A stretch of DNA of 33,062 nt from Chthoniobacterales bacterium (GTDB lineage Bacteria; Verrucomicrobiota; Verrucomicrobiia; Chthoniobacterales; Terrimicrobiaceae). The DNA lies in assembly GCA_014879575.1 (NCBI GenBank), contig JACSRU010000075.1:1-33062 (forward strand), read 5' to 3'. Below the pieces are notes generated by a model that worked only from the letters and a program-made list of their open reading frames with translations, was not told where the DNA came from and ran no database searches. Both the position numbers and the translations under genes were made by a program. Positions 2,430 through 27,213 of the stretch are shown here, one piece after another; the stretch's first letter is position 1; every line of letters begins with the position of its first letter.

Positions 2430-4127
2430 ATGAATTCCAAACCTTCCGCCAAACTTCGTCCGTATTCTTCCTTGGTTTTGGACGGATTGAGCCGGGCACC
2501 CAGCCGGGCCATGCTTTATCCGGTGGGTTACAAGGAAAGCGACTTTTCAAAGCCGCAAATCGGAGTCGCCTCGACCTGGAGCATGGTCACTCCCTGCAAC
2601 ATGCACATCGACCAACTCGCCCGGGAATCGGCTCTGGGCATTGATTCGGCCGGGGGGAAGGCCACGATTTTTAACACCATCACCATCTCGGATGGAATCT
2701 CCATGGGCACTGAGGGCATGCGCTACTCGCTGGTGTCGCGCGAGGTGATCGCGGATTCCATCGAGACGGTTGTGGGCTGTCAGGGCTTTGACGGATTTGT
2801 CGCGATCGGAGGTTGCGACAAAAACATGCCCGGTTGCATGATCGCCATCGCACGCTTGAATCGTGCGGCCGTGTTCGTCTATGGGGGCACGATTCTCCCG
2901 GGATGCCTCGCGGGGAAAAATCTTGATATCGTTTCGGTTTTTGAGGCGGTCGGCCAGCGGGCGGCGGAAAAAATCTCTGGAAAGGAGCTTCACGATGTCG
3001 AGTCGTGCGCGATTCCGGGTGCCGGTTCGTGCGGCGGCATGTATACGGCGAACACGATGGCCTCCGCCATCGAGGCTCTGGGATTCAGCCTTCCGAACAG
3101 TTCCGCGCAGGCGGCCATCTCGGATCACAAAACAAAGGATTGCCGCGACGCGGGCGTCGCGGTCCTCAACCTTTTGAAAAAGGGCATCCGTCCGTCGGAC
3201 ATTTTCTCGAAGGAGGCTTTTGAAAATGCGGTCACGGTCTGCATCGCCCTTGGTGGCTCGACAAACGCCGTGCTGCACCTGTTGGCCATGGCGCACTCCG
3301 CAAACGTCAGGCTCACAATTGAAGACTTTACGCGCATTGGAAAGCGCGTCCCCGTGCTGGCGGATTTGAAACCCAGCGGACGCTACCTCATGTCCGAGTT
3401 GGTGGAGATCGGCGGGATCGTTCCGATGATGAAAACCCTGCTGGCGGAGGGCCTCCTCCACGGGGGATGCCTCACCGTGACCGGAAAAACGCTCAAGCAA
3501 AACCTTTCGGCCTTCAAGCATTACCCGAAGAACCAGAAAATCATCGCTCCGGTCAGCAAGCCGCTCAAAAAAGAAAGCCACCTGGTCATCCTGCGCGGAA
3601 ACCTCGCCCCGGATGGTGCCGTCGCGAAAATTTCCGGGAAGGAAGGCGAACGCTTCAGTGGGAAAGCCCGCGTCTTCGAGTCCGAGGAAAAGGCGCTCTC
3701 CGCCATTCTGGCTGGAAAAATCCGCAAGGGGGATGTGATTGTGATCCGCTACGAGGGGCCCCGCGGCGGTCCGGGAATGCGTGAAATGCTGTCGCCAACC
3801 AGCGCGGTGATGGGCCGGGGCCTTGGGAAGGATGTCGCACTCATTACCGACGGACGGTTCTCCGGTGGCACGCATGGATTCGTTGTCGGACACATTACGC
3901 CCGAGGCCTTTGAAGGTGGCCCGCTTGCCATCGTCCGCGATGGGGATGCGATTACTATTGATGCGACCACCCGGAAGCTGTCGCTTGGAATCTCCGCCAA
4001 GGAGATCGCCAAACGCCTCGCGGCTTGGAAAAAGCCGAAACCCCGTTACCGGCGCGGTGTTCTCGCCAAGTATGCCGCCCACGTCTCGACGGCTTCCCAG
4101 GGTGCCGTGACGGATTTTGGATTCTAA
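2430..4127 (+). CDS. ilvD: Dihydroxy-acid dehydratase
   Basis: This 565-aa iron-sulfur enzyme dehydrates 2,3-dihydroxy-isovalerate and its methylvalerate homologue to the 2-keto acids, the third step of valine, leucine and isoleucine synthesis. The three cysteines expected to hold the 2Fe-2S cluster are present: Cys56 in TPCNMH, Cys129 in [10 protein letters not shown] and Cys201 in [14 protein letters not shown]. Lys131 next to Cys129 is the usual carbamylated metal-binding lysine. The C-terminal half has [14 protein letters not shown] and [10 protein letters not shown], and the protein ends in the family-typical [12 protein letters not shown]. Length is normal. No other ilv gene is in the window. 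The gene lies 9 nt upstream of the NRPS-like gene, so the two are very likely cotranscribed. Confidence 0.97.
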
Positions 4128-4136
4128 TTTTCTCCG

Positions 4137-7100
4137 ATGAGCGAAGGCGCGGCAAATCCCATGCAGGCAGCAGCGTTTCTTCGGGAGCGCAATTCCCCGA
4201 AAAAACACCATACCCAGGTTTCCATCAGTTTCGGGGAGCGGATGGATGTCGGCGCCCTGCGGGCTGCATGGGAAGTGGTTTGCGGCGTCCATCCGGTCCT
4301 CAAATCCCAATTCACCCACACGGCGATCGGTGGCGTGACGTTTCAGGAAGCCTCCGCCGCAACCACCACCTGGCGCGAGGTGGACTGGCAGGCTCTCAAC
4401 CCGGAGGAAATCCCGGACAAGTGGACCGAACTGCAAAATTCGGATGAATCCGAGGCGTTTGATCCGCAATCCCAAGTGCGCATCACGGTCATCCTGCTGC
4501 CGGGGGGTGGCACCCACTACCTCTTGACGCTTCCCGGCTACCTTCTCGATGAGACCTCGATAGGCCGCGTTTTGCTTGATTGGCTCGTCGCCCTCGATCG
4601 CCCTCCGGCTCCGGTCACCCCGCTGGTTGTTCCCCTCGCGAACGCGACGGCTTGGACCGAAATTCTCAAGCCCGCCCAAGGCCCCATGAAATTGATCCCC
4701 CGTCCACCGGGACGGGATTCGATTACCGAATCGCTGGCCATCGGACGGGAGGAATCCCGTGCGTTTTTGGATTCCTGCAAAGCGCACGCACTCGATCCCC
4801 GTGCGGTGCTCCATTTTCTGTGGGGGCTTCTCCTGCGCCGACTGGGTGCCACCGGCAATGTGAGCCTGGGACTCTTTGAAGTGCCTCACAATTCGGGCGA
4901 AGCCGGATTTTTTGAAAATTGGCTCCCTGTCGTCCATCCCTGGAATTCAAAGGACTGGGTGAGGGACTCCCAGCAGGCTTACGATGCGGTGTCGAATAAC
5001 GCCTGGATCTCCCCCGCATCCGCCCTGACGGCCTCCCCGGTGCCGATTGCGCTCGAACATCTGGAAACCGGATTCGCCTGGCGAGGGCCCGAGGTCAGGG
5101 ATCAAATCCAAACCGCCATGCCTCGCTGGATCAACTTTGACGCAAAAATCCAGAGGCGGGCTCCGGATCTGATGTTGTTGGAAGTTCGTAGTGCCCTCCA
5201 GATCACCTTGCAAATTCACGCGCGGATCGAGAACCGGCTCTTGGTAAAGGATCTCCTCGAGAGACTCTCCGGATTGATGCAATCGCTGGATACCCTCATC
5301 ACAAAGCCGATCGGCCAGATCCCCTTGTTGATGCCCCAGGAAGTCCGCACCCTCAAACAATGGTCACGGGGTCCGGAAGGGTTGGAACGTCCGAAAGATA
5401 TCCTTGAGGCCTTTCGCCACCCGGTCGCCAAACACCCGGATCATGTCGCGGTCCGCGACGGCGACTATGCCCTCACGTTTCGCGAACTCGACACCCTCTC
5501 TGATCGCTTGGCCTCCTATCTCGCACATGCGGGGCTGGCGGAAGGATGGCATGTCGCGCTCTTTCTCTCTCCCTCTTCGTGGATTGCCATCGCGCTCATC
5601 GGAACTTGGAAGGCGGGAAATTCCTGCCTGGCACTGGACCCGGCGGCTCCGCCGGAGTGGATCGAGTCCATGCTTACCTCGCATGATGCCGGCGTGGTCA
5701 TCTGCGACGCGGCCAGTGCTCCGCTCCTTGACAGTTCTGCGCGCAGGCGCATCGTCCTGGATCAGGAATGGGACGACTTGGCAACCGGCGAACTTCCCAA
5801 GCCGACTCTTTCTCCGGAATCCCCGGCAGCCATCCTCCCCGGACACTCGGACACCCCCCCGCCTTTGATCCGGGCCCTTACTCACGAAATGCTTGTCACG
5901 GCAGCACTCGAGGGCGCGAGAGTTCTGAACTTCGGTGCCTCGGATTCTTTTCTTGCCCATTCCGCACCCGGCGGAGGGGCGTTTTTTGATGAGTGGTTGC
6001 TCCCGATCCTGGCAGGCGGTTCCGTGTGCGTGGCGGACGATGACGTGCTTGATCCTGCGGCAACCGATACCACCCACATCCGCCTCACCGCTCCGGAATG
6101 GAACAATCAGGCGGCCCGCTGGTCCCGGGAGGCGGAGAACCGCCCGGCAACGACTCCCGGCTTCGTCGCCGTGGAGTATGGCACCGCGTCCGAACAATCT
6201 CTCGCGATTTGGAATTCCTGCACGGGAAACGAGGGAAAAACCATCAGCTTTTTCAGTCCCGCCGGCCTGTGCGGTCTCGGACTGGCTGGAGCCGCCACTG
6301 CGGAAAATGGAATCCTCCTGGCCGGCGCCCCCACTCCCGATGTCGAAATGAACGTGTGCGATGAAGACGGGCAGGATGTCCCCCCCGGATTTTCCGGCAT
6401 GTTGCGGATGAAATTTCCCGGCTGGAAAAAGATCTTTCCGCAGGGCGGAAGAAGGGGCCTGGACACAGGCTTTCGCGCCTGGCGCAATGGGAAGGGTCTC
6501 TGCCATGTGGAAGGGGACAAAAGCCGATTCCCCGACCTCTCCCCCGCCGCGCTCCACCTGAGATCCCATCCCGGCGTCTTCGATGCCCTGATCGGCGAGC
6601 ATACCTGGACGCTCTCTGCCGCATCGGTTCAAGGTTCCCGACCGGTCTCCGAATGGCCGCTGACTCGCGCCGGATGGATTGACGAAGCCGCTCTGCCAAG
6701 ACCGGAAATCCCCGCCCCTCAGAAAGCTCCGCTCCCGGCTGCCCAGGAACCTTCCCACCCGATTGGTCCATGGAAACCGGTCGCCATTCTCCAAAAGAAC
6801 AAGGGCATTTCTCCCTCTCTCGTCCTTGTGCCCACGGCCTCGGGAATTCCCGACACCTACCAGGATTTTATCGCCGCCCTGGGAATGGGACGTCGGATTC
6901 TGGGCCTGACCGCGAGGGGCGTCAGCGACGCGGAGGCCTGCCATACGACGATCGAGAGTGCCGCCGCCGCCTGGATCCAGGCTCTCACGGAAGAAGATCC
7001 CTCCCTGGCCTTCGATCTGTGCGGATTTGGCTATGGAGGCCTGGCGGCTTTGGAAATGGCCCGCCAGCTTGCCACCGCCCAACGCCGCGTCCCGGAGCTC

Positions 7101-7442
7101 ATCCTCATCGGAACGCATCCGCCTCTCCTGGAAAAATCCACGGGTTGGCTCTCCTCGATGAAGAACGCCTTCAAGCGCCTGTCGGCGGAAGATCGCATCG
7201 AACCTTTCAGTGCCCTCGGGGAACCCGCGCGCACCCATCTGGCCGCCTGCTTTCGATATCGCTTCACCCCTCGCGACCTGCGGGCCCGCATCATCCTCCC
7301 ATCTGACTTTTCCTCGGATGCCGCCGACGCCTGGAGAGCGATTCTCCCTTCGGCCCGCGTGGAATTCGTCAAATGCGCGTGGGCCGAAATGCTCTCGTTT
7401 CCTTCGGTCAAGCGACTCGCCTCAATCCTCTCGGCAGACTGA
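4137..7442 (+). CDS. NRPS-like C-A-TE protein with degenerate active sites and no carrier domain
   Basis: The 1101-aa protein has the layout of a one-module nonribosomal peptide synthetase. Residues about 1-420 resemble a condensation domain: the LRAAWEVVCGVHPVLKSQF start and FENWLPVVHPW core match, but the HHxxxDG site reads P133-G-Y-L-L-D-E139, so the catalytic second His is Gly134. Residues about 425-856 resemble an adenylation domain with recognisable A1/A2 (LTFRELDTLSDRLASYL, GTWKAGNSCLALDP). Its A3 phosphate loop is absent around 564-580, A5 is YGTASE (681-686), A7 is TGF with Phe779 for Asp, and A10 is PLTRAGWID with Trp847 for Lys. A roughly 30-residue Pro-rich linker replaces the carrier protein. 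The thioesterase (about 890-1101) has GFGYG (Ser to Gly965), Gly992 for Asp and Trp1082 for His. Alignments are by eye. Start ATG 4137 lies 9 nt after ilvD. Function unknown. Confidence 0.85.
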   Translation: MSEGAANPMQAAAFLRERNSPKKHHTQVSISFGERMDVGALRAAWEVVCGVHPVLKSQFTHTAIGGVTFQEASAATTTWREVDWQALNPEEIPDKWTELQNSDESEAFDPQSQVRITVILLPGGGTHYLLTLPGYLLDETSIGRVLLDWLVALDRPPAPVTPLVVPLANATAWTEILKPAQGPMKLIPRPPGRDSITESLAIGREESRAFLDSCKAHALDPRAVLHFLWGLLLRRLGATGNVSLGLFEVPHNSGEAGFFENWLPVVHPWNSKDWVRDSQQAYDAVSNNAWISPASALTASPVPIALEHLETGFAWRGPEVRDQIQTAMPRWINFDAKIQRRAPDLMLLEVRSALQITLQIHARIENRLLVKDLLERLSGLMQSLDTLITKPIGQIPLLMPQEVRTLKQWSRGPEGLERPKDILEAFRHPVAKHPDHVAVRDGDYALTFRELDTLSDRLASYLAHAGLAEGWHVALFLSPSSWIAIALIGTWKAGNSCLALDPAAPPEWIESMLTSHDAGVVICDAASAPLLDSSARRRIVLDQEWDDLATGELPKPTLSPESPAAILPGHSDTPPPLIRALTHEMLVTAALEGARVLNFGASDSFLAHSAPGGGAFFDEWLLPILAGGSVCVADDDVLDPAATDTTHIRLTAPEWNNQAARWSREAENRPATTPGFVAVEYGTASEQSLAIWNSCTGNEGKTISFFSPAGLCGLGLAGAATAENGILLAGAPTPDVEMNVCDEDGQDVPPGFSGMLRMKFPGWKKIFPQGGRRGLDTGFRAWRNGKGLCHVEGDKSRFPDLSPAALHLRSHPGVFDALIGEHTWTLSAASVQGSRPVSEWPLTRAGWIDEAALPRPEIPAPQKAPLPAAQEPSHPIGPWKPVAILQKNKGISPSLVLVPTASGIPDTYQDFIAALGMGRRILGLTARGVSDAEACHTTIESAAAAWIQALTEEDPSLAFDLCGFGYGGLAALEMARQLATAQRRVPELILIGTHPPLLEKSTGWLSSMKNAFKRLSAEDRIEPFSALGEPARTHLAACFRYRFTPRDLRARIILPSDFSSDAADAWRAILPSARVEFVKCAWAEMLSFPSVKRLASILSAD

Positions 7443-7481: not shown

Positions 7482-7997
7482 TCAGGGGTTTTTTTGACTT
7501 CGAAGCTGGCAGGGTTGGACAGCAGACGATTCGCCCAAATGTTTGAGGCATTCGCGGATTGCGGGAACGAGGGGCGGCAGGCATTCCGCGATGGAGCGGG
7601 GATTTCCCGGGAGATTGATGATCAGGGATTGTCCGCGGGTTCCGGCGGTGGCGCGCGAGAGGATGGCTGTCGGAACTTTTTGAAAGCTGAGGGCTCTCAT
7701 GGTTTCTCCGAAACCCGGGAGTTCCCGCGTCAGGATCGCGCGGGTGGCTTCCGGCGTCACATCCCGCAGGCCCGGTCCCGTGCCACCAGTGGTAATCACC
7801 AAATCGCAGCCTGCCTGGTCGCATAGCTCCAGAAGGGCCGCCTGGATTTGCGCCGGTTCGTCAGGCAGGATTCTTGAAAGAACCTCTGCGGTGGAGTCCA
7901 GATGATCACGAACGATCCGCTCGATTTCCGGGCCGCTCAGATCTTCATAAATTCCGGCGTGGGCCCGATCGCTGAGCGTGATGCGTCCGATTTTCAT
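7482..7997 (-). CDS. mog: Molybdopterin adenylyltransferase (Mog/MoaB family)
   Basis: This 171-aa protein of the MoCF_biosynth family adenylates molybdopterin before metal insertion by MoeA. The signature TTGGTGPGLRDVTPEAT lies in the middle, followed by RATAGTRGQSLIINLPGNP, where the N-L-P-G-N-P segment contacts the substrate. The N-terminus (KIGRITLSDRA) starts the core strand directly. Length is nearer to MoaB (about 170) than E. coli Mog (195), but RATAGTRG is more Mog-like, so the choice of symbol is an inference. The start overlaps the moaC stop by 4 nt (7994-7997), indicating translational coupling. It is the last gene of the molybdenum-cofactor operon and ends 39 nt from the convergent NRPS-like gene. 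No clear terminator is seen in that gap. Confidence 0.9.
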   Translation of the reverse strand: MKIGRITLSDRAHAGIYEDLSGPEIERIVRDHLDSTAEVLSRILPDEPAQIQAALLELCDQAGCDLVITTGGTGPGLRDVTPEATRAILTRELPGFGETMRALSFQKVPTAILSRATAGTRGQSLIINLPGNPRSIAECLPPLVPAIRECLKHLGESSAVQPCQLRSQKNP

Positions 7998-8446
7998 TCC
8001 TTGGTTTTTTCCACGACCTGGAGCCCTTCGATCCGCATCGTTTTATCCACCGCCTTCATCATGTCATAGAGTGTCAGCGCGGCGAGGCTGGCGGCTGTGA
8101 GAGCTTCCATCTCGACCCCGGTTTTTGCATGGGTCTTCGCCATTGTTGTGATCAAAATTTTGTCATTTTTCACGGCAAAATCCACCGTGACCTTGTCCAA
8201 CGGGAGACTGTGGCAGAGCGGGATTAGGGCGGCGGTCTGCTTGGCCGCCTGGATGCCGGCAATCCGGGCGACGGCCAGCACGTCGCCCTTTGGCAGAGCT
8301 TGGTCCGCAAGAAGCTTGATGGTTGTCGGCTGGCAGTGCAGCTCGGCTGTGGCGCGGGCCACGCGGGTTTGCAAGGGCTTTCCGCCCACATCCACCATGT
8401 GGGCTTCTCCGGCATCATCCAGGTGACTGAAGGATTTGGGGTTCAT
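7994..8446 (-). CDS. moaC: Cyclic pyranopterin monophosphate synthase
   Basis: This 150-aa enzyme acts with MoaA in the first step of molybdenum-cofactor synthesis, turning the 3',8-cyclo-GTP intermediate into cyclic pyranopterin monophosphate. Diagnostic motifs are MVDVGGKP near residue 17, LIPLCHSLPLDKV and KTGVEMEALTAASLAAL, followed by TLYDMMKAVDK, which carries the active-site Asp and Lys. Length matches the family. The ATG overlaps the moeA stop by 4 nt (8443-8446), and its own stop overlaps the mog start by 4 nt, so both neighbours are coupled. Confidence 0.96.
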   Translation of the reverse strand: MNPKSFSHLDDAGEAHMVDVGGKPLQTRVARATAELHCQPTTIKLLADQALPKGDVLAVARIAGIQAAKQTAALIPLCHSLPLDKVTVDFAVKNDKILITTMAKTHAKTGVEMEALTAASLAALTLYDMMKAVDKTMRIEGLQVVEKTKE

Positions 8447-9600
8447 AAGATCATGACGTTCGCGCGTCCGGACTTATCCGCATCGAGAATCAACACTTCC
8501 GCCCGGATGATTGGGGTGAGATCCCCCGAGTGTTTCCATGGAAGGGGACGGACCATTTCCTGTCCGTCCCGGCACTCCAGAATTCCCGGTGTCCAGGTTC
8601 GACGAGGATCCGTGCTCTCCTTCACGGCGGAAATCTGTTGAACGCTGCGCATCCCGGGAACCGGCAACCCCTGCAGGCGGCAGAGTGCCCGCTTGACAAA
8701 GGCGTGAAAGCAAACCCATTGGGAAAGAGGATTGCCCGGCAAGCCAAAGGCAATCCGGGAGCCTTTCGTCGCAAAAATCAAGGGCTTGCCAGGACGGCTG
8801 TTCAAGCGGGAGACATGGATCGAGAAGCCGGCGGATTCCAACACGCCCCTCGTGTGGTCCCGGTCGCCCGGACCGGAGCCTCCGGAAATCAGAAGCACAT
8901 CCGCCGAACTTGCCAGAACCTTTCGGAGCAAGACGTCGGGATCATCCGCGAGGCGATCCTGCGCGACTTCCCCCCCGAGATCGCAGAGCAAAGCCCGGAT
9001 CATGGGTCCGTTGCTATCGTAGGTTTTCCCCGGTGGCAGCGGAACTCCGGGACCAAGAATCTCGTCGCCCGTCACAAGATGCAGGACACTCGCATTTCCA
9101 ATGACCGGGAGATGTTCCCTGCCGACGGAGGCAAGCAACGCAATTCCTCCGGCCGTCATTTTCGTCCCGGCAGGAATCAGAAGATCCCCCGTTCGGACAA
9201 TCCCGCCGCGCCGCCGGATGTTCTCGCCGGGAGAAATCGAGAGGCCGGGCCTCAAAGTCACCAGATCTCCTTCAACCGAACAATCCTCCTGCCTCGCGAC
9301 AGCCACGGTGCCTTCGGGAATCATGCCGCCAGTGAGAATCCTAAGCGCCGTTCCCGAAGTGACAGATTGAGAGAGCGGAGTCCCTGCGGAGAGGGAGCCT
9401 TGGATCCGACAAATTCCCGGCGGGGTGCCAGCAAAGGCATAGCCATCCATGGAACTCTGGTCAAATGAGGGCACCTCGCAAGGGGACATCACCGCAGCAC
9501 CTGTCACGCGATGCAGGGAGTTCGCCAGGGAAACGGTGCGAACCGGAAGGCAGGCCACCCTCGCATCGATTTCCTTCCAAAGTTGTTCGATCTCCATCAT
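8443..9600 (-). CDS. moeA: Molybdopterin molybdenumtransferase
   Basis: This 385-aa enzyme inserts molybdate into adenylated molybdopterin to give active cofactor. It shows FDQSSMDGYAF (domain I), an RILTGGMIPEG segment and IRRRGGIVRTGD. The MoCF domain follows with ISGGSGPGDRDHT, equivalent to the Mog GGTG loop, and FGLPGNPLSQWV. The C-terminal domain is also present. Length is slightly short of the usual 400. Two consecutive ATG codons open the frame; the first (9598-9600) is 1 nt after the moaE stop, and either could be used. Confidence 0.95.
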   Translation of the reverse strand: MMEIEQLWKEIDARVACLPVRTVSLANSLHRVTGAAVMSPCEVPSFDQSSMDGYAFAGTPPGICRIQGSLSAGTPLSQSVTSGTALRILTGGMIPEGTVAVARQEDCSVEGDLVTLRPGLSISPGENIRRRGGIVRTGDLLIPAGTKMTAGGIALLASVGREHLPVIGNASVLHLVTGDEILGPGVPLPPGKTYDSNGPMIRALLCDLGGEVAQDRLADDPDVLLRKVLASSADVLLISGGSGPGDRDHTRGVLESAGFSIHVSRLNSRPGKPLIFATKGSRIAFGLPGNPLSQWVCFHAFVKRALCRLQGLPVPGMRSVQQISAVKESTDPRRTWTPGILECRDGQEMVRPLPWKHSGDLTPIIRAEVLILDADKSGRANVMIL

Positions 9601-9601
9601 G

Positions 9602-10021
9602 TCAATGCGCGGCCGACTCCTCTTGGCTATTTACGATTTCTGATGAAACCCCCGCAGCCCGCTTCCAGATCGGGACCTCTTGTTTGAGGCGGTCGAGAAA
9701 TTTGGTGAGAACGGAAAAGGCTTCGAACCGGTGCTTGGAAGACACATCCATCAGGATGGCTGCCTCCCCAACTGGCACAAACCCGATGCGGTGATGCACG
9801 CGGGCGATGTGGAAGGGATGCACCCGTCCCAGGTCCTCCAAAATTTCACGAATCATCCTGTCCGCCATCGGCTCATAAGCCTCATAATTCAGCCCGGTAA
9901 TCCGCCGCCCCCCTTCGAGATCCCGAACAATTCCCTCGAACCGCGCAATCGCGCCGACACCCGCCGCTGCAAGCGGCGGCAGGCTCAGGGCTTCCGGGCA
10001 AAGAAGAATTTCGATTTTCAT
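9602..10021 (-). CDS. moaE: Molybdopterin synthase large subunit
   Basis: This 139-aa subunit, with MoaD, transfers sulfur to cyclic pyranopterin monophosphate to make molybdopterin. It contains the family motifs FEGIVRD, LNYEAYEPMADRMIREI, HRIGFVPVGEAAILM and SSKHRFEAF, and KQEVPIWKRA with the active-site Lys near the end. The frame extends 48 codons upstream, but that extension is out-of-frame moaD sequence. ATG 10021 overlaps the moaD stop (ATGA at 10018-10021) and gives the normal MoaE length. Confidence 0.94.
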   Translation of the reverse strand: MKIEILLCPEALSLPPLAAAGVGAIARFEGIVRDLEGGRRITGLNYEAYEPMADRMIREILEDLGRVHPFHIARVHHRIGFVPVGEAAILMDVSSKHRFEAFSVLTKFLDRLKQEVPIWKRAAGVSSEIVNSQEESAAH

Positions 10022-10257
10022 CCTCCGGAAACAGGCGGGATGATGGCCGCCTCCTCCAGCCTGTCCAAGTATTGATTGTCGGTGACATAGCGCATTCCGG
10101 ATGCCACCCGGGATTGTCCCGCAAGTTCTGCAAGCGCAGGATGCCTCCGCAAGGCTTCCGCCCAAAATTCTTCGAGCGTAAGATCGCGGTCCACCTTCCA
10201 GTCTTCCTCACGGCATCCCGTCACATCGGAGGCTTGGGCGAAATAGAGAACTCTCAT
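10018..10257 (-). CDS. moaD: Molybdopterin synthase sulfur-carrier subunit
   Basis: This 79-aa ubiquitin-like protein ends in the obligatory Gly-Gly (IIPPVSGG), which is adenylated and thiocarboxylated before sulfur transfer in MoaE. It opens with MRVLYFAQASDVTG, typical of MoaD (RVLYFA), and has VTDNQYLDR before the last strand. It lies between moaA (14 nt upstream) and moaE (4-nt overlap). Size, C-terminus and context agree. Confidence 0.93.
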   Translation of the reverse strand: MRVLYFAQASDVTGCREEDWKVDRDLTLEEFWAEALRRHPALAELAGQSRVASGMRYVTDNQYLDRLEEAAIIPPVSGG

Positions 10258-10271
10258 GGTCGTTGGAGAAG

Positions 10272-11240
10272 TCAGCCACCGATCGCGGTCATCGGACGTT
10301 CCGGTTGGTAGGATTGCAGAAATTCATGGTCCTCGGGCTTGTTGGCGATCGCCATACGGATGGCGGCAGCGGGATCCTCTCCGGTGCGCAACCTCCCGAG
10401 AAGATCGATTTCTCCGTGCCGTCCGAGACAGGGACGCAATTTCCCATCCGCCGTCAGTCGCAATTTGTTGCAGCTCTCGCAGAAATGCGGCGCGGTGAGC
10501 GCCCCGATCAATCCAATCCGCGCTCCGGAGGGCTCGAAGGAAAAATATCGGGCGGGGCCGTTTCCCGGGCGGTAATCCGGCAGCTCCCGCATCTCGCCAT
10601 GAGAGGCAAGCCGCCGCCTCAATTCGCCGATGGAAAGAAAGTTTTGTTCGCTGAGCACGTCGGTGCGCGAGAGCGGCATGAGTTCGATAAAGCGCAAAGG
10701 GGCGCCAATTTCCGCCGCAAAGCGAATCAGCGGAAGATACTCGGTTTCGTTGACGTTTCGTATCAGCACGCAGTTCAGCTTGATCACTTCGAAGCCTGCG
10801 GAGAAGGCTGCGGAGATCCCCGCAAAGACGCTCTCGATCCCTCCCCCGGTGATGCGGCGATAAACAGCGGGATCCATGGCGTCGAGCGAAATATTCACGG
10901 ATCGGACCCCCGCCTGCTTGAGATCACGCGCCAAGGGCGCCAGAAACGTGGCGTTGGTGCTCAACCCCAGGGTGCGAACCCCGGGCACCTCCCAAATGCG
11001 CCGACATATTTCGACGATATCCTTGCGCAAGAGAGGCTCGCCACCGGTCACCCGGAATTTCTTAAACCCGAGATCCGCAGCGGCTCTGACTGTCCGAAGG
11101 ATTTCCTCCGCACTCATGTGGTCGCTTCGCTGCGCCCACCCCTTGTATCCTTCCGGCATGCAATAAAGGCATTTTTCATTGCAGCGATCCGTGACGGATA
11201 TCCGCAGGTAATCGATGCTCCGGTTAAAGGGATCCTTCAT
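10272..11240 (-). CDS. moaA: GTP 3',8-cyclase (radical SAM)
   Basis: This 322-aa radical SAM enzyme cyclises GTP to 3',8-cyclo-GTP, committing to molybdenum-cofactor synthesis. The SAM cluster motif CNEKCLYC is at residues 20-27, followed by the VTGGEPLLR SAM-binding motif. The C-terminal second 4Fe-4S site is seen in CESCNKLRLTADGKLRPC, and the protein ends in AIGG, the essential C-terminal Gly-Gly tail. The frame stays open 71 codons further upstream, but ATG 11240 gives the normal N-terminus (RSIDYLRISVTDRC) and has a GGAGA Shine-Dalgarno about 8 nt upstream (minus strand, 11249-11253). It is the first gene of the six-gene cofactor operon. Confidence 0.95.
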   Translation of the reverse strand: MKDPFNRSIDYLRISVTDRCNEKCLYCMPEGYKGWAQRSDHMSAEEILRTVRAAADLGFKKFRVTGGEPLLRKDIVEICRRIWEVPGVRTLGLSTNATFLAPLARDLKQAGVRSVNISLDAMDPAVYRRITGGGIESVFAGISAAFSAGFEVIKLNCVLIRNVNETEYLPLIRFAAEIGAPLRFIELMPLSRTDVLSEQNFLSIGELRRRLASHGEMRELPDYRPGNGPARYFSFEPSGARIGLIGALTAPHFCESCNKLRLTADGKLRPCLGRHGEIDLLGRLRTGEDPAAAIRMAIANKPEDHEFLQSYQPERPMTAIGG

Positions 11241-11286
11241 ATTCGGTTCTCCACAGCAGAAAGTGTGACAAGGACCGGATGGCAGC

Positions 11287-11306
11287 CGCCCCTGGGCCAG
11301 GGGGCG
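11287..11306. other. GC-rich hairpin between the MFS gene and moaA
   Basis: CGCCCC (11287-11292) and GGGGCG (11301-11306) form a 6-bp stem with an 8-nt loop in the 106-bp gap. It lacks a U-tract on the minus strand, so it is not a standard intrinsic terminator. It could separate the two transcription units or lie in the moaA leader. Confidence 0.3.
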
Positions 11307-11346
11307 TCCCGCCGAAAAATTTGATGGATGCGAAAAGCCATGCCGG

Positions 11347-12699
11347 TCAACGATGCCACAGCTTGCTCGCCCGCCGCAACCACGCATAGACCAGGCTGGA
11401 TGACTCGCTGCCCCGGGCTTCGTGAAGTCGCCGAATGAGTCGCAGTGCCACAATGTTCAAAAGAAAAAGCGCCAGAAAATAGATGCTGTGTCTCCGCCAG
11501 TGAAAGGCCCCCGTCACCACTTCATAGGTTCCGACAAAATCCAGCGAGATTCCCCAGACAACCGGAGCCGCGCCGAGGCCGAGGCTGGTAATCACTGTAA
11601 ACAGGGCAAAGAAATGATTCCGCCCCATCTCTGGCATCGTGACCATGACGATGCGCGCATTTGCCAGATTGAAATTCGATCCGGCAACTCCCGAAAAAAA
11701 GTTCAAGATTCCAATCATCAAATGCGAACATGGCAATACGTCGGCCGCCACCAGAAACCAGCCAAGAATCACCAAGCTGAATAAGAGAAGGGCGCCGGTC
11801 ATGATCGGCTTGCTCCCCGCCCGATCCACAAGCCGTCCAACGAAGGGCAAACTGACCAATGCCCCGATAAAGGAAAGGCCGGAAAGGTAGAGGACGGTGG
11901 AAACATCAAACTTCGGGAACTCCCGCAGGTATTCCACCGTGAAGACCCCGAGGCTGCCAATGACCGCCATGAAGAGCACATTGAAACGAAGAAGTTCCCG
12001 GAACGGGGGATACGCGATGATATGCCGCCACGGCACCGGCTCGGAGGACTTGCGGACACTCTCGACGGCTTTTACATCGGGAATTTTCTGAATGAAACTC
12101 AAGCTGAGCGTGGCTCCAACCGTGCTGATGAAAAAGACCAGCGCATACTCCCAGGAATCCACCTGGCCAGTCATCACGATCGCCGAGGCCACAAGCGCAA
12201 GAAGAGATCCCACATGCATGAAGATCTGGTCCAGGGAGAGAAACCGTCCGCGAATTTCCTCCGGGATCAGGACCGTGATCCACGGCATCCAGGCCACGGA
12301 CGAAATGCCCCGCAAAAAATTAAAGAGAAACAAGGCCGCCAGTATGGCTGCCAGTTTGGACGTATCGTCCAGAAAGTAGGCCAGCGGGACCAAGGTCACC
12401 ACAAAGATAAAAATGGTGCGCAGTCCCCACCCCATCAGCACAAAGCGCTTGTAGCCATATCGCCCCAGAAATTGTGCGGCAGGCAGCTGGAGGACGGTCA
12501 TGAGCGGAGTGAATGCAGCCAGAATGCCCAGCACGGTCGAAGAGGCGCCGATGCTTTGCGCATACAGGATAATCGGCGCCCCCAGAATAATCTGAAACGA
12601 AATCGCGTTACAGAGCCCAAACCAATGGGCGTTGAACAAGCCCTTGGGGTAATAGCGGGAAATAAAGCTCACTCCGCCAGTGGGGGGAGGAGAAGACAA
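11347..12699 (-). CDS. Major facilitator superfamily transporter
   Basis: This 450-aa inner-membrane protein has about 12 hydrophobic helices. The first helix region begins near residue 20 (FNAHWFGLCNAISFQIILG). A loop with GRYGYKRFVLMGWG after helix 2-3 corresponds to the MFS motif-A region, and a second related loop FVGRLVDRAGSKPIMTG opens the second half. A central cytoplasmic loop (around PDVKAVESVRKSSEPVPW) separates two six-helix bundles. Substrate cannot be told. Its stop is 106 nt upstream of moaA on the same strand, so readthrough into the cofactor operon is possible. Nothing ties it specifically to molybdate, whose import normally uses an ABC system. Confidence 0.88.
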   Translation of the reverse strand: MSSPPPTGGVSFISRYYPKGLFNAHWFGLCNAISFQIILGAPIILYAQSIGASSTVLGILAAFTPLMTVLQLPAAQFLGRYGYKRFVLMGWGLRTIFIFVVTLVPLAYFLDDTSKLAAILAALFLFNFLRGISSVAWMPWITVLIPEEIRGRFLSLDQIFMHVGSLLALVASAIVMTGQVDSWEYALVFFISTVGATLSLSFIQKIPDVKAVESVRKSSEPVPWRHIIAYPPFRELLRFNVLFMAVIGSLGVFTVEYLREFPKFDVSTVLYLSGLSFIGALVSLPFVGRLVDRAGSKPIMTGALLLFSLVILGWFLVAADVLPCSHLMIGILNFFSGVAGSNFNLANARIVMVTMPEMGRNHFFALFTVITSLGLGAAPVVWGISLDFVGTYEVVTGAFHWRRHSIYFLALFLLNIVALRLIRRLHEARGSESSSLVYAWLRRASKLWHR

Positions 12700-20923: not shown

Positions 20924-23900
20924 TTAGAACAGAACGATCTTCTTGATGCGCACTTTGAGATTTTCCACGGGCTGCATGTCGGTGCCGACGAGCGCTTTTC
21001 TTGGAAACGTCAGAATGAGCCCCTGCACGCTGTTGTTGATTTCGCGTATCCAGTCGTAATACGGGTAGCGCACGAAATTCCATCCCTCGAAGTTCATCGT
21101 CTGCTCTCCGGGCCAGCGTATGTGCAGGTTGCCATTGGTCGCCCACGGGCCCCATGACTGTGTTTTCCAGAGATCGACATCACCCCAGCTTCCGTTGCCC
21201 TTGATCCAGATTCCGGCATTTTTCGCCTTGGTCGTGACGGGCGACTTCAGCTTGAGCGCCACATATTCATGCTCCATGTCCCAGCGAAGTTCTTTTTCCG
21301 GGATCAGCTCGATCTCGAGGCAGGCTCCCATCTCCGGGTCTTCCACTTCCCGGATTTCAAATTTTCCCTGTCGTTTTTGAGGAATGTTTTCCGGGCGGAG
21401 TCTGCTTTGTTCCTCGATTGTCGGAAAATCAATGATCTCGACCTTCGCGAGGGAATCCAGCGGGATTTCCTGCAAGGATTCTTTTGGGGGAAGATCATCG
21501 GGGAAGCGCGTGCTTCCAAGCTCCACGGATTTCAGTTGTTCTTTGGAAACAAAATACCGCACGCCCGTTGACGCGACCGCCTTCACACTTTCTCCGGTTT
21601 TTGTTATTTCCCGCCCGTAGAGATCGATGATCCTGCGCTTCGAGTCCCCGTCAAATGTCAGCGTGACATCGCGCTCGCCGCGAGGCGTCCACACCGCATA
21701 GATCCACTCGTCCCCACGTTGAAATTCTTGGACATAAAGCACGGTGGAACCGGACGGGACAAAGCGGACGAACTTCGCGCTGTCCAGCACCTGTGTGAGA
21801 GTCGCAATCGCGGCGTAGGAAGGTTTGGGAGCCATGATGGGATACCGTCCCGTCAATCCGCCACCGCCCCAGATGGAGTAATAATAGGCGCTGCTGGCAT
21901 CATTGATTCCCGCAATGCTGATGGTATCGAACCCGTAGGCGAGCGCGATCAATCCGTCGCGTGCCTTCCATTCCGCCTGCTTTTGCGGCCCCAGCCGCTC
22001 CGTCATTCGGCCAATCCATTCCGTGCAGGCGGTGAGCGGAACGTCTCCGTAACCCATCTTGCGAGCCAGTTCCCGCAGAAACCATGCGGAATGGAAGGCG
22101 CCGATCAGGACCCGCTCCGGCGCAAAAGTTTGCCCGAGGTCTTCGGTGGCGACGGTGTCCATGTATTTCCGGGGAAATTTCTGCCGGAAAAGTTCTCCCA
22201 TGATCCCGAGGCTGTCGCCGTCGTTTCCCCATTGCATTTTGAGCTGGGGAAACTTCTCCCGCACCATTTTGGACATCGCCGTGAGATATTCGATGCGCTT
22301 GGGCCAATTCTTTTCCCAGGCTTCGCGCGATTTATCATCAGTCGCTGCGATCTGCGTTTCACTGCCGCCCTGCGCACGCAACAAGGCTTCCGGAGAAGTC
22401 GCGTCACCGCCGTTGCTCGCATAATTCACTGCCGGTGCGCCCCAGAGCTCGGATGGAGGATAGGGTGCCCCCGTCGAGCCACTCTCGTGGAAAACCAACA
22501 TCCGGTCGATGGACGGCCACAGATCCAGATGCTTTTGGATAAACTCCTCATGCATGGCCACAGCCTCTTTCAGAGTCAACTTTCCGTCCCGAAAGTCCCG
22601 CAACGCGCGTCCGCCGCCCACATAGGCAAACCCAATGGTGGAATTGGTAAACCCGTATTTCTGCGTCAGACTTTCCGGCATCTCTTCCGTCAGTTCCACA
22701 CGCCGGATTCCCAGCTTCTGCAACAGCGGGCCCACTTCCTCCAGCTTGGCATCGCTGCCTTGATTTTTCTGAAACCACCATCCATAGAAAGGCGATTCGT
22801 AACCCGCCTTTCGCGTGTCTGGAGGCAGCATCACAAACGAACTGCGATAATCAATCCGTTCGACGCTGTCGGAAAGACGCACCCGCAGCGCATACCAGCC
22901 ATTTCCCTGCTTCACCGGAATCCGCACGATTTGTTCCTCGCCCGCTTTCAAGGTCACGGTCGATTTTCCGCTTTCCACAATTTTCTCCGAAATATCGGCC
23001 ACGTCCCATTCCACTTGATACGTGCCTGCTTCGTGCGCCTTCACCCGTGCCAGAAATTCCGGATTCTCCGCGGCATAGAATGCCTGCACACCGGTATTGC
23101 TGAGCACTTCCATTTCCACCGGACTTTTTTCCAGTGCGATCCCAAACACATGTACGCCGCTGGTCTGCGGTTCGGGCCAGGCGGTGTAAATATCGTAGTC
23201 CTTCATCTCCGGATCAGTGGGCTTCCATGCCCGCTTGACCAATTTGGAAGGAGGCGGAAACACCTGCGACTCTTCCACGTTTTCCATGGGATCGAGCAAC
23301 TCCACATCGAGATACTCATGCGTCCCCATTCCCGTGGCCCGTTTCGTGTCGTTGTGCAGAACATCCTGAATCATTCCATTGCGCACGGGCACTCGGACCA
23401 GCCACAACGCCGCCTCTCGCGACTTGTCACCGTAACGCACGCTTCCCACTTTTTTAGCGGATTTTTCGGAGACCTCCACCAGCGTATCCGCGACCGCATT
23501 CCCACGGCTATTCCCATAGCGAGTCAGACGAAATGTGAATTCATTCAGTCCGTTCTCTTCCACCGCGCAAAGCACCCAGGCATGGGAATACGTCGCCTGC
23601 GGAACGGTAAACATGCGCTGCTCGGGCATATTATTGAGCGCGTTTCGCCTCCAGAAAAAGTTCTGCAAATCATCCGTGGCCCATTTGTTGAAGGACCCCA
23701 ACCCTCCCACGGCGATGCCTTTTATCGGCTTGTCGCCCCATTTCCGGAACGCCTCCGGCATCGGCGTCTTTCCGTCGAACTTCAACTGCGCATTGGCAAA
23801 TTTTCCCTCCCGCGCCTGCCACTCCACTGGCAAAGTGCGGTATTTTTCATCTACCGTTTGCGTGAGTTCAAGCGAATGCACCGTCGAGCCTGGAGCCAGA

Positions 23901-24475
23901 TACACCTTGTAGCTCACCGGCACTCCGCCCTCCTGCAAACGGATAAACTGTTTATCAATCCAGACTTCGACCTTCCCGCCATCCACCGGGCGCAATTCCA
24001 CCGTGAAAGGATGCTCCGAAGCCGGAGGCAGTTTCTTCCATGCTTCCACACGATTCGGCCATTCATTCCGGTGATAAAAATTCGGATTCGGACGCACATA
24101 ATAGCTGTTCCACCCACCCAGACCGCCTATCGACAAATAGGCATCTTCGTAAACATTCTCCCCGATCTTGTGATCCAATGCTCGTATGTGAAGAGACGAA
24201 CTTTTCCCTTCGGCATCCTGCAACTCAATCGTAAGCGGATGTTTTCCTTTTCCTGTTCTTCCCTTCAAGACAAACACAGGCATTTCGTCTGGGATACTTC
24301 CCTCAAGGCGGGCTGTGCTCCGTTCCGTCTCCGAAGCTGCCGCCACAAGCCCCGCTTCCGTTTGCGTCACCTTTCCCGTGACAACGCAGTCTGGCGGAAG
24401 GAAGGGCAGTTCGGCGTGAAGAACTTTCGAAAATAGCGCGCAAGCAAGAAGAGAAATTCGCAGGCTTTTGTTCAT
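20924..24475 (-). CDS. Large exported glycosidase-like protein of unknown family
   Basis: The 1183-aa product has a signal peptide (MNKSLRISLLACALFSKVLHAE). The N-terminal roughly 550 residues are beta-rich and include a GIAVGGLGSFNKWATDDLQ segment. About 560-900 looks like a (beta/alpha)8 barrel: FYGWWFQKNQGSD, MLVFHESGSTGAPYPPSELW, MQWGNDGDS, VATEDLGQ and CTEWIGRM supply several acidic residues at strand ends. The last 170 residues (from about 1010) look like a lectin-type beta-sandwich (NAGIWIKGNGSWGDVDLW). I do not recognise a numbered glycoside hydrolase family. Start overlaps the esterase stop by 4 nt. A role as a main secreted hydrolase of the locus is inferred from context. Confidence 0.7.
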   Translation of the reverse strand: MNKSLRISLLACALFSKVLHAELPFLPPDCVVTGKVTQTEAGLVAAASETERSTARLEGSIPDEMPVFVLKGRTGKGKHPLTIELQDAEGKSSSLHIRALDHKIGENVYEDAYLSIGGLGGWNSYYVRPNPNFYHRNEWPNRVEAWKKLPPASEHPFTVELRPVDGGKVEVWIDKQFIRLQEGGVPVSYKVYLAPGSTVHSLELTQTVDEKYRTLPVEWQAREGKFANAQLKFDGKTPMPEAFRKWGDKPIKGIAVGGLGSFNKWATDDLQNFFWRRNALNNMPEQRMFTVPQATYSHAWVLCAVEENGLNEFTFRLTRYGNSRGNAVADTLVEVSEKSAKKVGSVRYGDKSREAALWLVRVPVRNGMIQDVLHNDTKRATGMGTHEYLDVELLDPMENVEESQVFPPPSKLVKRAWKPTDPEMKDYDIYTAWPEPQTSGVHVFGIALEKSPVEMEVLSNTGVQAFYAAENPEFLARVKAHEAGTYQVEWDVADISEKIVESGKSTVTLKAGEEQIVRIPVKQGNGWYALRVRLSDSVERIDYRSSFVMLPPDTRKAGYESPFYGWWFQKNQGSDAKLEEVGPLLQKLGIRRVELTEEMPESLTQKYGFTNSTIGFAYVGGGRALRDFRDGKLTLKEAVAMHEEFIQKHLDLWPSIDRMLVFHESGSTGAPYPPSELWGAPAVNYASNGGDATSPEALLRAQGGSETQIAATDDKSREAWEKNWPKRIEYLTAMSKMVREKFPQLKMQWGNDGDSLGIMGELFRQKFPRKYMDTVATEDLGQTFAPERVLIGAFHSAWFLRELARKMGYGDVPLTACTEWIGRMTERLGPQKQAEWKARDGLIALAYGFDTISIAGINDASSAYYYSIWGGGGLTGRYPIMAPKPSYAAIATLTQVLDSAKFVRFVPSGSTVLYVQEFQRGDEWIYAVWTPRGERDVTLTFDGDSKRRIIDLYGREITKTGESVKAVASTGVRYFVSKEQLKSVELGSTRFPDDLPPKESLQEIPLDSLAKVEIIDFPTIEEQSRLRPENIPQKRQGKFEIREVEDPEMGACLEIELIPEKELRWDMEHEYVALKLKSPVTTKAKNAGIWIKGNGSWGDVDLWKTQSWGPWATNGNLHIRWPGEQTMNFEGWNFVRYPYYDWIREINNSVQGLILTFPRKALVGTDMQPVENLKVRIKKIVLF

Positions 24476-25272: not shown

Positions 25273-27213
25273 CTAACGGCGACGACGGACAATCGCCAAT
25301 GCACCGGCGAGCACAAGAAGCATCGCTGTTCCCGGTTCGGGAACGGCGGTCGTTTCCAGCCAAACACGATTCGGGCCGTAGTTGATGCCGAATTCATAAC
25401 TCCCCATCACGAAAGTGGGCGTCGCAGCGAAACCATTGATCGTGGCAAACGTTCCCGTGATGAGTCCGTCGGTGGAGGTCAGCAGATCGATTTCCTCGCC
25501 AAGGATTGGGGCATAGCCAAGCGTCAGTTTAAGATCGCCGTTGAGCGTCACGATGTTTGATGCGGGTGTGACATTCGTCACCGACAGCGCGGAGAACGAA
25601 CCGCCCACAAGATCCACCTGGAAGGTTGAACCGGCATCGAGCGCGAGGGAGCCTGTGATTTCCAGCGCGTCCGCCGAGGAATAGCTCGCATCCAGCGTAC
25701 CGCCGGACCAGACATTCACCGGGGTGTAGCGGGTGCCGCTGTTCACGTTGCTAGCGCTCCAAATCCACGCGGTCCCTCCGCCAATTTCCCCGCTGCCGGA
25801 AAGGGTTGCCCCGTCACGCACTTGCACCACCCCCACATCCTTCAGCGTGCCATCCAATTTCAATAAGCCGCCTTGGACGTCCGCCACGCCGGCGATATTT
25901 GTGGCATTGCCCGAGAAGACCAGCGCGCCCGGACCAGTTTTGGTGAAGGTGTAGCCTGAATAGTTTCCTCCCGCGTCCTTCAGGTTGGCGGAAATCATTA
26001 ACGTCCCGGTGGAATACTGGTGAACGGTCAGGAATCCGTTGCCAACACTCGCCGTCTTGATTGTGTAATTGCCCACGTTCTCCTCCATCAGGATGGCCGT
26101 TGTTCTCAATTGGAAATTGCCATCCAGTTCCGCCGTACCCGCTGCTCCGTTAATGGTCAAGGAATTTGCGGCCACATCGCCTGTCAGCGTTTGCCCGCCG
26201 GAGACGTAGCGGTTCGCCTGCGTATCCGGCACAGTGACACCTGCCGTCGGGAGGGCTGTCATCGCCGTGAAGCGGGTGACAAGGCCCGTTCCGACATCAC
26301 GAGTTGCAAAACCGGTTTTCGTGCTGTCTGTGACAGTGCTGAAGAGCGAGACTCCATTTGTCATAAAGCTTCCCACAGCATCCAACTGAAAGGCACTCCC
26401 CGGTGAAGTCAGATTCACATTCAGAGAGGGAAAACCATCGGTGGCGGCCGTAAGGCGGGCGAAATCCGAAAACCGGAGCGTCGTTCCGGCCCCGCCATTG
26501 GAATCTACAACAATGCGGTTGGCTCCGGTGGAGCGGCCAAGATACAACCTTCTGCCTGTATTGATAACAGTGCTTCCGGTACTTGCTCCGCTAGCCTTGA
26601 AAAGACCGCCCTGATTGACGTCCGTTACCGCGCCGTTCACGCCAAAGAACAGATCCCCCCCTGCCGCAAGCGACCCGCCCGCCCCGGCATCCAGCAGAAT
26701 CTTCCCTCGCAGAAAACCCAATTGGCCTGTAAAGGTGTTTGCTCCGGCGAGAGTGAGCGTTTCGGTTCCCGACTTTGTCAAAACCCTTGCTCCGCCAGTT
26801 TCGCCAATCACACCATTGATGCGAATATCCCCGTGCGCCGCATCAATATTACGCTGAGCATTCAGTGTCATCGCATTATCAATCGTCTGAAGAACACCGC
26901 TGTTGTTCGTGATATTCCCATTTAGAGTAAACGTGTTTCCACCCAGCACGAAGCTGCCCGCGCTGGCGGCAAAGGTGATGCCATTGAGACTTGTCACGAT
27001 GTCATTGTCCGGCCCCAGGCGTGTAGTGCCATCGAAGACCAGCGTGGCACCGGTGGCTCCTGGAGCTGTTCCGCCCCAGTTTGCGGCGGAACTCCAGAGA
27101 TCATCTGTGCCCCCGCCGTTCCACGTGCGGAGTTGAGCGTGAGCCGAAGATAGTGCCACGACAAGCCCTGCTGCGAGGGTGAGGCGGCGCATGATGTTTT
27201 GTTGGTTTTTCAT
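25273..27213 (-). CDS. PEP-CTERM protein with autotransporter-type beta-strand repeats
   Basis: This protein of up to 646 aa has a signal peptide (LTLAAGLVVALSSAHAQ), an opening WNGGGTDDLWSSAANWGG motif common in verrucomicrobial surface proteins, and repeats such as LTKSGTETLTLAGANTFTG and FTKTGPGALVFSGNATNIAG, the autotransporter-associated beta-strand repeat of a right-handed helix. The C-terminus is a PEP-CTERM signal: VPEPGTAMLLVLAGALAIV followed by RRRR, expected to be processed by an exosortase. No exosortase gene is in the window. Start may be ATG 27213 or an ATG 7 codons later; both keep the signal. Likely extracellular and adhesive or scaffold-like, by inference. Confidence 0.87.
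   Translation of the reverse strand: MKNQQNIMRRLTLAAGLVVALSSAHAQLRTWNGGGTDDLWSSAANWGGTAPGATGATLVFDGTTRLGPDNDIVTSLNGITFAASAGSFVLGGNTFTLNGNITNNSGVLQTIDNAMTLNAQRNIDAAHGDIRINGVIGETGGARVLTKSGTETLTLAGANTFTGQLGFLRGKILLDAGAGGSLAAGGDLFFGVNGAVTDVNQGGLFKASGASTGSTVINTGRRLYLGRSTGANRIVVDSNGGAGTTLRFSDFARLTAATDGFPSLNVNLTSPGSAFQLDAVGSFMTNGVSLFSTVTDSTKTGFATRDVGTGLVTRFTAMTALPTAGVTVPDTQANRYVSGGQTLTGDVAANSLTINGAAGTAELDGNFQLRTTAILMEENVGNYTIKTASVGNGFLTVHQYSTGTLMISANLKDAGGNYSGYTFTKTGPGALVFSGNATNIAGVADVQGGLLKLDGTLKDVGVVQVRDGATLSGSGEIGGGTAWIWSASNVNSGTRYTPVNVWSGGTLDASYSSADALEITGSLALDAGSTFQVDLVGGSFSALSVTNVTPASNIVTLNGDLKLTLGYAPILGEEIDLLTSTDGLITGTFATINGFAATPTFVMGSYEFGINYGPNRVWLETTAVPEPGTAMLLVLAGALAIVRRRR

Follow-up and report, generated by a model that had tools for sequence, protein, structure and literature searches.

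The window analyzed here, a stretch of 33,062 nucleotides from a Chthoniobacterales bacterium, carries on its forward strand the gene for dihydroxy-acid dehydratase (ilvD, 2430..4127, 565 aa) and, starting 9 bp past its stop, an open reading frame at 4137..7442 (+). The ilvD product scored 752 bits against the TIGR00110 equivalog model (cutoff 618) and 828 bits against NF002068, and its Cys56, Cys129 and Cys201 were conserved in 39/39 aligned relatives. The frame behind it begins with ATG and encodes 1101 aa with no internal stops, confirming the intact frame described by an earlier model reading made from the letters alone (the sequence-only reading). Its product has the condensation, adenylation and thioesterase (C-A-TE) architecture of a peptide synthetase (NRPS) module without the carrier (T) domain, and we called it the pseudo-NRPS. 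Convergent with it, on the reverse strand at 7482-11453, is a molybdenum-cofactor gene cluster (MoaB-like, MoaC, MoeA, MoaE, MoaA). Rfam searches detected no RNA leader or riboswitch within the window.

Pfam searches recovered AMP-binding (PF00501, E=1.7e-25) and Thioesterase (PF00975, E=6.8e-13) domains in the window protein, while the Condensation match was weak and below cutoff (E=0.004). Homology to Condensation and AMP-binding was clear in the orthologs (e.g., Condensation at E=1.3e-43 in G047); the TE of the members in family f2 was not recognized by Pfam. An AlphaFold (AF2) model with 28 orthologs as input had a mean pLDDT of 85.5, and its best Foldseek match was SrfA-C (2vsq, E=3e-59). 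The top matches included SrfA-C, AB3403 and EntF, all of which are C-A-T-TE modules. As modeled, the fold is that of a C-A-TE termination module, in keeping with the alignment that the sequence-only reading had drawn by eye along the protein. Based on this fold and on the homology of its three domains, the pseudo-NRPS belongs by descent to the NRPS superfamily (C-A-T-TE).

The catalytic sites expected of such a module were lost in each domain. In the condensation-like domain (residues 1-395, 4137..5321, delimited by AF2/Foldseek and alignment), Gly134 (nt 4536-4538) occupies the position of the catalytic His of HHxxxDG. Family-wide conservation is highest in this domain too, in the block IQTAMPRWINFDAKI at residues 324-338 (5106..5150), where P329, W331 and D335 were invariant in 28 members. 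The adenylation-like core (residues 420-770, 5394..6446, from the PF00501 match and alignments) has lost the A3 phosphate loop (nt 5832-5888) and the A4 Asp position. The sequence-only reading had the loop as simply gone; the loss stands, although the loop has been replaced and not just deleted. Its place is taken, in the branch that includes the window, by a Pro-rich PGHxDGxPPxxRALTH-type stretch. The C-terminal subdomain of the A domain is shortened (residues 771-856, 6447..6704), and alignment placed Phe779 at the A7 Asp and Trp847 (nt 6675-6677) at the A10 Lys. Where the carrier domain was expected there is, as that reading had also described, a Pro-rich linker (Pro/Ala-rich, residues 857-879, 6705..6773); most of it had pLDDT <50. 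In the thioesterase-like domain (residues 880-1101, 6774..7439, PF00975 and alignment) the Ser/Asp/His triad is replaced by Gly965, Gly992 and Trp1082. Every degenerate residue that had been named from the letters, from Gly134 to Trp1082, was correct by alignment.

The same sites were lost throughout the 28 aligned members. The catalytic His of the C domain was found in only one of them (G026, HHSLFDE, with the second His kept), and the first His of the motif was kept in members of families f7 and f9. None of the 28 had an intact A3 loop, A4 Asp, A7 Asp or A10 Lys. The column of the TE Ser was Gly (Gly965) in all 28, the TE Asp was present only in two f7 members, and the TE His in none. In the f9 members a carrier-like domain persists, its phosphopantetheine Ser replaced by Lys; this domain, modeled at low confidence, aligned with genuine carrier domains encoded in the window's genome.

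Motif searches for HHxxxD, GxSxG, GxCxG, the A3 loop, GKID-type A10 and GGxS-type carrier motifs found none anywhere in the window protein. Shifted active sites were also considered and rejected: no motif was found at the right places in the window protein and 27 orthologs. Under the identical search, C, A and carrier motifs did show up in an ordinary NRPS that the same genome (G000) carries on contig C81. No NRPS active site has merely been displaced and, judged by its residues, the pseudo-NRPS lacks the C His, the A3, A7 and A10 sites, a carrier Ser and the TE triad of a functional NRPS. It is a pseudoenzyme of the NRPS superfamily. The ordinary NRPS on C81 (locus L146) belongs to a cluster in which these C, A and carrier motifs are intact. 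In one relative (G004, locus L037, 8367-11630) the A10 region was gone with the frame intact, while a 94% identical relative (G013) keeps this region, so that the A subdomain of G004 has eroded recently and in frame.

Searches of the order, made with a single sequence first and a profile second, identified orthologs in 33/36 genomes of families f1, f2, f7 and f9, with 23/26 in the window's own family f1, two in f2, 4/4 in f7 and four in f9; the gene was cut by contig ends in four of these 33 carriers. Identity to the window protein ranged from 69% down to 17%. Outside the four families the profile search found only ordinary NRPSs, both in the nine remaining families of the order and in 289 genomes spread over the phylum, so that no member of this lineage with intact catalytic sites was recovered there. 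A narrower alignment against genome contigs matched only Verrucomicrobia/Spartobacteria-type records, which were metagenome assemblies labeled Spartobacteria, Terrimicrobiaceae or Chthoniobacter. Family f7 includes the complete genome of Xiphinematobacter (G031, 915,884 bp), a nematode endosymbiont with a reduced genome of 0.9 Mb, in which the pseudo-NRPS is intact. Xiphinematobacter CP012665 has 817 proteins (PMC4607532), and the main text of two Xiphinematobacter genome papers does not mention an NRPS.

In the ilvD tree f12 was outermost, followed by f7 and then by f13, f2, f9 and f1. Presence and absence of the pseudo-NRPS on this tree required three changes, one gain and two losses, and the tree of the pseudo-NRPS itself, rooted on f7, matched the ilvD tree in its main order, with some long branches. 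The trees fit a single origin and vertical descent. Since f9 retains a degenerate carrier domain, the ancestor would have been a C-A-T-TE protein, and the loss of catalysis probably predates the split of the families. We envisage a single-module peptide synthetase whose catalytic sites disappeared, most likely in a single event, in the ancestor of several Verrucomicrobiota families.

Pairwise dN/dS of the pseudo-NRPS was 0.06-0.31 (NG86, thirteen pairs), alike in C, A and TE, with the weight resting on close pairs since several pairs farther apart had saturated dS. For close pairs the values were 0.13 (G004/G013), 0.10 (G016/G021) and 0.07 (G017/G025). In seven of the same pairs IlvD had dN/dS of 0.01-0.11 against 0.07-0.31 for the pseudo-NRPS, so that the gene is constrained, although less so than a central enzyme. 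Simulated neutral evolution at 0.1 substitutions per site left 0/200 frames open, with a mean of 7 stops, and at 1.0 substitutions per site produced about 27 stops, which agrees with the argument of the sequence-only reading that decay would have brought stops. Neither dN/dS near 1 nor disrupted frames were found in relatives, and the pseudo-NRPS is under long-term purifying selection. Together with the loss of the same sites in all families and retention in the endosymbiont, this upholds the earlier suggestion of selection for a non-catalytic role.

The ilvD gene, which had been proposed only as a marker for finding orthologs, is the main functional clue. In 29/29 carriers from f1, f2 and f9 (29/33 of all carriers) the pseudo-NRPS immediately followed ilvD on its strand, with one insertion (G002); the gaps, where measured, were 9-93 bp, G002 excepted. 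Other neighbors of the pseudo-NRPS were common to no more than a few genomes, and the neighbors of ilvD differed in sister families without the pseudo-NRPS. In f7 ilvD was far from the pseudo-NRPS, with both genes retained. In G002 (locus L033, 11307-12660 and 12664-13785) a 1.35-kb insert separates the two genes and contains a restriction-modification-like pair of frames, one resembling an MT-A70 methyltransferase (DPPW) and the other a restriction endonuclease. The ilvD of this genome is missing about 187 internal residues in frame, through either a real deletion or an assembly collapse.

The two genes also co-occurred, with ilvD present in 33/33 carriers. Two genomes of the window's own family (G014, 93% complete, and G024, 64% complete) were without ilvD, ilvC, ilvH and the pseudo-NRPS, and are probable branched-chain amino-acid auxotrophs. 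This looks like loss of a pathway and not of one locus because, in the window's genome, ilvC and ilvH are on a different contig (C68) from ilvD (C12); in part, adjacent ilvD and pseudo-NRPS may nevertheless have gone in one deletion. Many of the 22 genomes of f13, none of which had an ortholog, and G005 (71% complete) keep ilvD without the pseudo-NRPS, which is therefore accessory and not essential. No relic of it was found downstream of ilvD in f12, f13 or G005 at E<=0.01. We also considered whether loss of the AHAS regulatory subunit had called for a new partner. This was rejected, as ilvH, the canonical subunit, was present in most carriers tested and the pathway has its usual regulator.

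As the pseudo-NRPS was never found without ilvD, is arranged with it as in an operon and is retained in an endosymbiont, a role in branched-chain amino-acid synthesis is our best guess. We hypothesize, with confidence just short of even, that this former NRPS module was recruited as a non-catalytic partner for the pathway and binds IlvD or a pathway metabolite. It would most likely tune or scaffold the enzyme, as HisZ tunes HisG in histidine synthesis, and IlvD would be the first candidate partner. Weighing against this are the usual regulator ilvH in most carriers tested, the f13 genomes and G005 with ilvD alone, and the unlinked genes of f7. The conserved block at residues 324-338 in the C-like domain is a candidate interface. 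In the Xiphinematobacter endosymbiont essential amino-acid pathways are conserved (PMC7857533). The sequence-only reading had named an amino-acyl ligand among the things that might be bound or sensed. The A4 Asp, which holds the amino group of the substrate, was lost in every member, as were the P-loop and the A10 Lys, and such a ligand is therefore not supported.

There is a substantial, if minority, chance that the pseudo-NRPS is conserved for a non-catalytic job unrelated to branched-chain amino acids, such as scaffolding some other enzyme or serving as a structural protein, and that its site behind ilvD provides expression only. Adjacency to a well-expressed housekeeping gene can persist for expression alone, the genes are unlinked in f7, and G005 does without the pseudo-NRPS while keeping ilvD; it is mainly because f13 also does without it that a role outside the pathway has to be entertained. 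Such a job would not account for the presence of ilvD in every carrier, however, nor for the joint absence of both from genomes that lost their ilv genes. Genome-reduced endosymbionts, moreover, retain both genes despite their unlinking.

An improbable alternative is that the protein has become a new enzyme, with catalysis at different residues. Purifying selection on all three domains would suit such an enzyme, as would invariant residues such as P329, W331, D335, D524 and Gly965, but Gly, Trp, Pro and Leu make up most of the invariant positions, as is typical of a fold and not of an active site. The Gly at the nucleophile elbow may persist owing to a strained turn, and its invariance alone does not prove a ligand site. 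Furthermore, the window protein has neither a GxSxG nor a GxCxG motif that could supply another nucleophile, and Pfam does not recognize the TE of f2 members. We consider it very improbable that partial NRPS chemistry is retained, for example condensation in trans in the members that bear a His (the second His in HHSLFDE of G026, the first in f7 and f9 members), given that the carrier is absent or Ser-less and the adenylation site and TE Ser are absent in all aligned members. That the gene is decaying and by chance still free of stops is scarcely credible, even though it evolves faster than ilvD and high G+C lengthens even antisense frames, as the frames were open in 33 carriers from four families, dN/dS was far below 1 and neutral simulation left no frame open.

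Kinases, proteases and relatives of tRNA synthetases all have well-known pseudoenzymes. HisZ, the regulator of the short-form ATP phosphoribosyltransferase, descends from an amino-acid-activating enzyme, histidyl-tRNA synthetase. Itself non-catalytic, it tunes an enzyme of amino-acid biosynthesis (PMC9734150), and in this it resembles the role proposed here, although its fold is unrelated to that of the pseudo-NRPS and our case comes from linkage to and co-occurrence with ilvD. That a whole NRPS module has turned into a non-catalytic regulator or scaffold for branched-chain amino-acid synthesis, and so would be the NRPS counterpart of HisZ, is a rather unlikely form of our preferred hypothesis of a partner for the pathway.

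Among NRPSs, the pseudo-NRPS has the C, A, TE order and the fold in common with the termination modules SrfA-C (2vsq), AB3403 (4zxh) and EntF (5ja2), but it is without their HHxxxDG His, A3 loop, A4 Asp, A7 Asp, A10 Lys, carrier Ser and TE Ser/His, and a carrier occurs only as the Ser-less relic in f9. Inactive C-type domains are known from working NRPSs, where a dead C-fold is kept for recruitment or dimerization (X-domain of glycopeptide NRPSs, C1 of VibF; works cited in PMC8795117). The pseudo-NRPS likewise retains a catalytically dead C-fold, but in those examples a single dead domain is part of an active assembly line, whereas here every domain is dead, the protein stands alone and no biosynthetic cluster surrounds the gene. 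A literature search that covered few subscription journals found no paper that linked a pseudoenzyme with nonribosomal peptides or with dihydroxyacid dehydratase, and no stand-alone, wholly dead NRPS module conserved across families.

Dead modules of this kind probably go under the name of peptide synthetases in annotations and could lead natural-product mining astray. If our hypothesis is true, a dead assembly line would control an enzyme of central metabolism in several Verrucomicrobiota, among them a nutritional endosymbiont, and the link to ilvD raises the question of whether IlvD in these bacteria needs or obeys a pseudo-NRPS partner.

Elsewhere in the window, on the reverse strand, two large frames of 1183 and 724 aa (20924-24475 and 27258-29432), neither with any Pfam match, flank an esterase-like gene and a PEP-CTERM protein (25273-27213).
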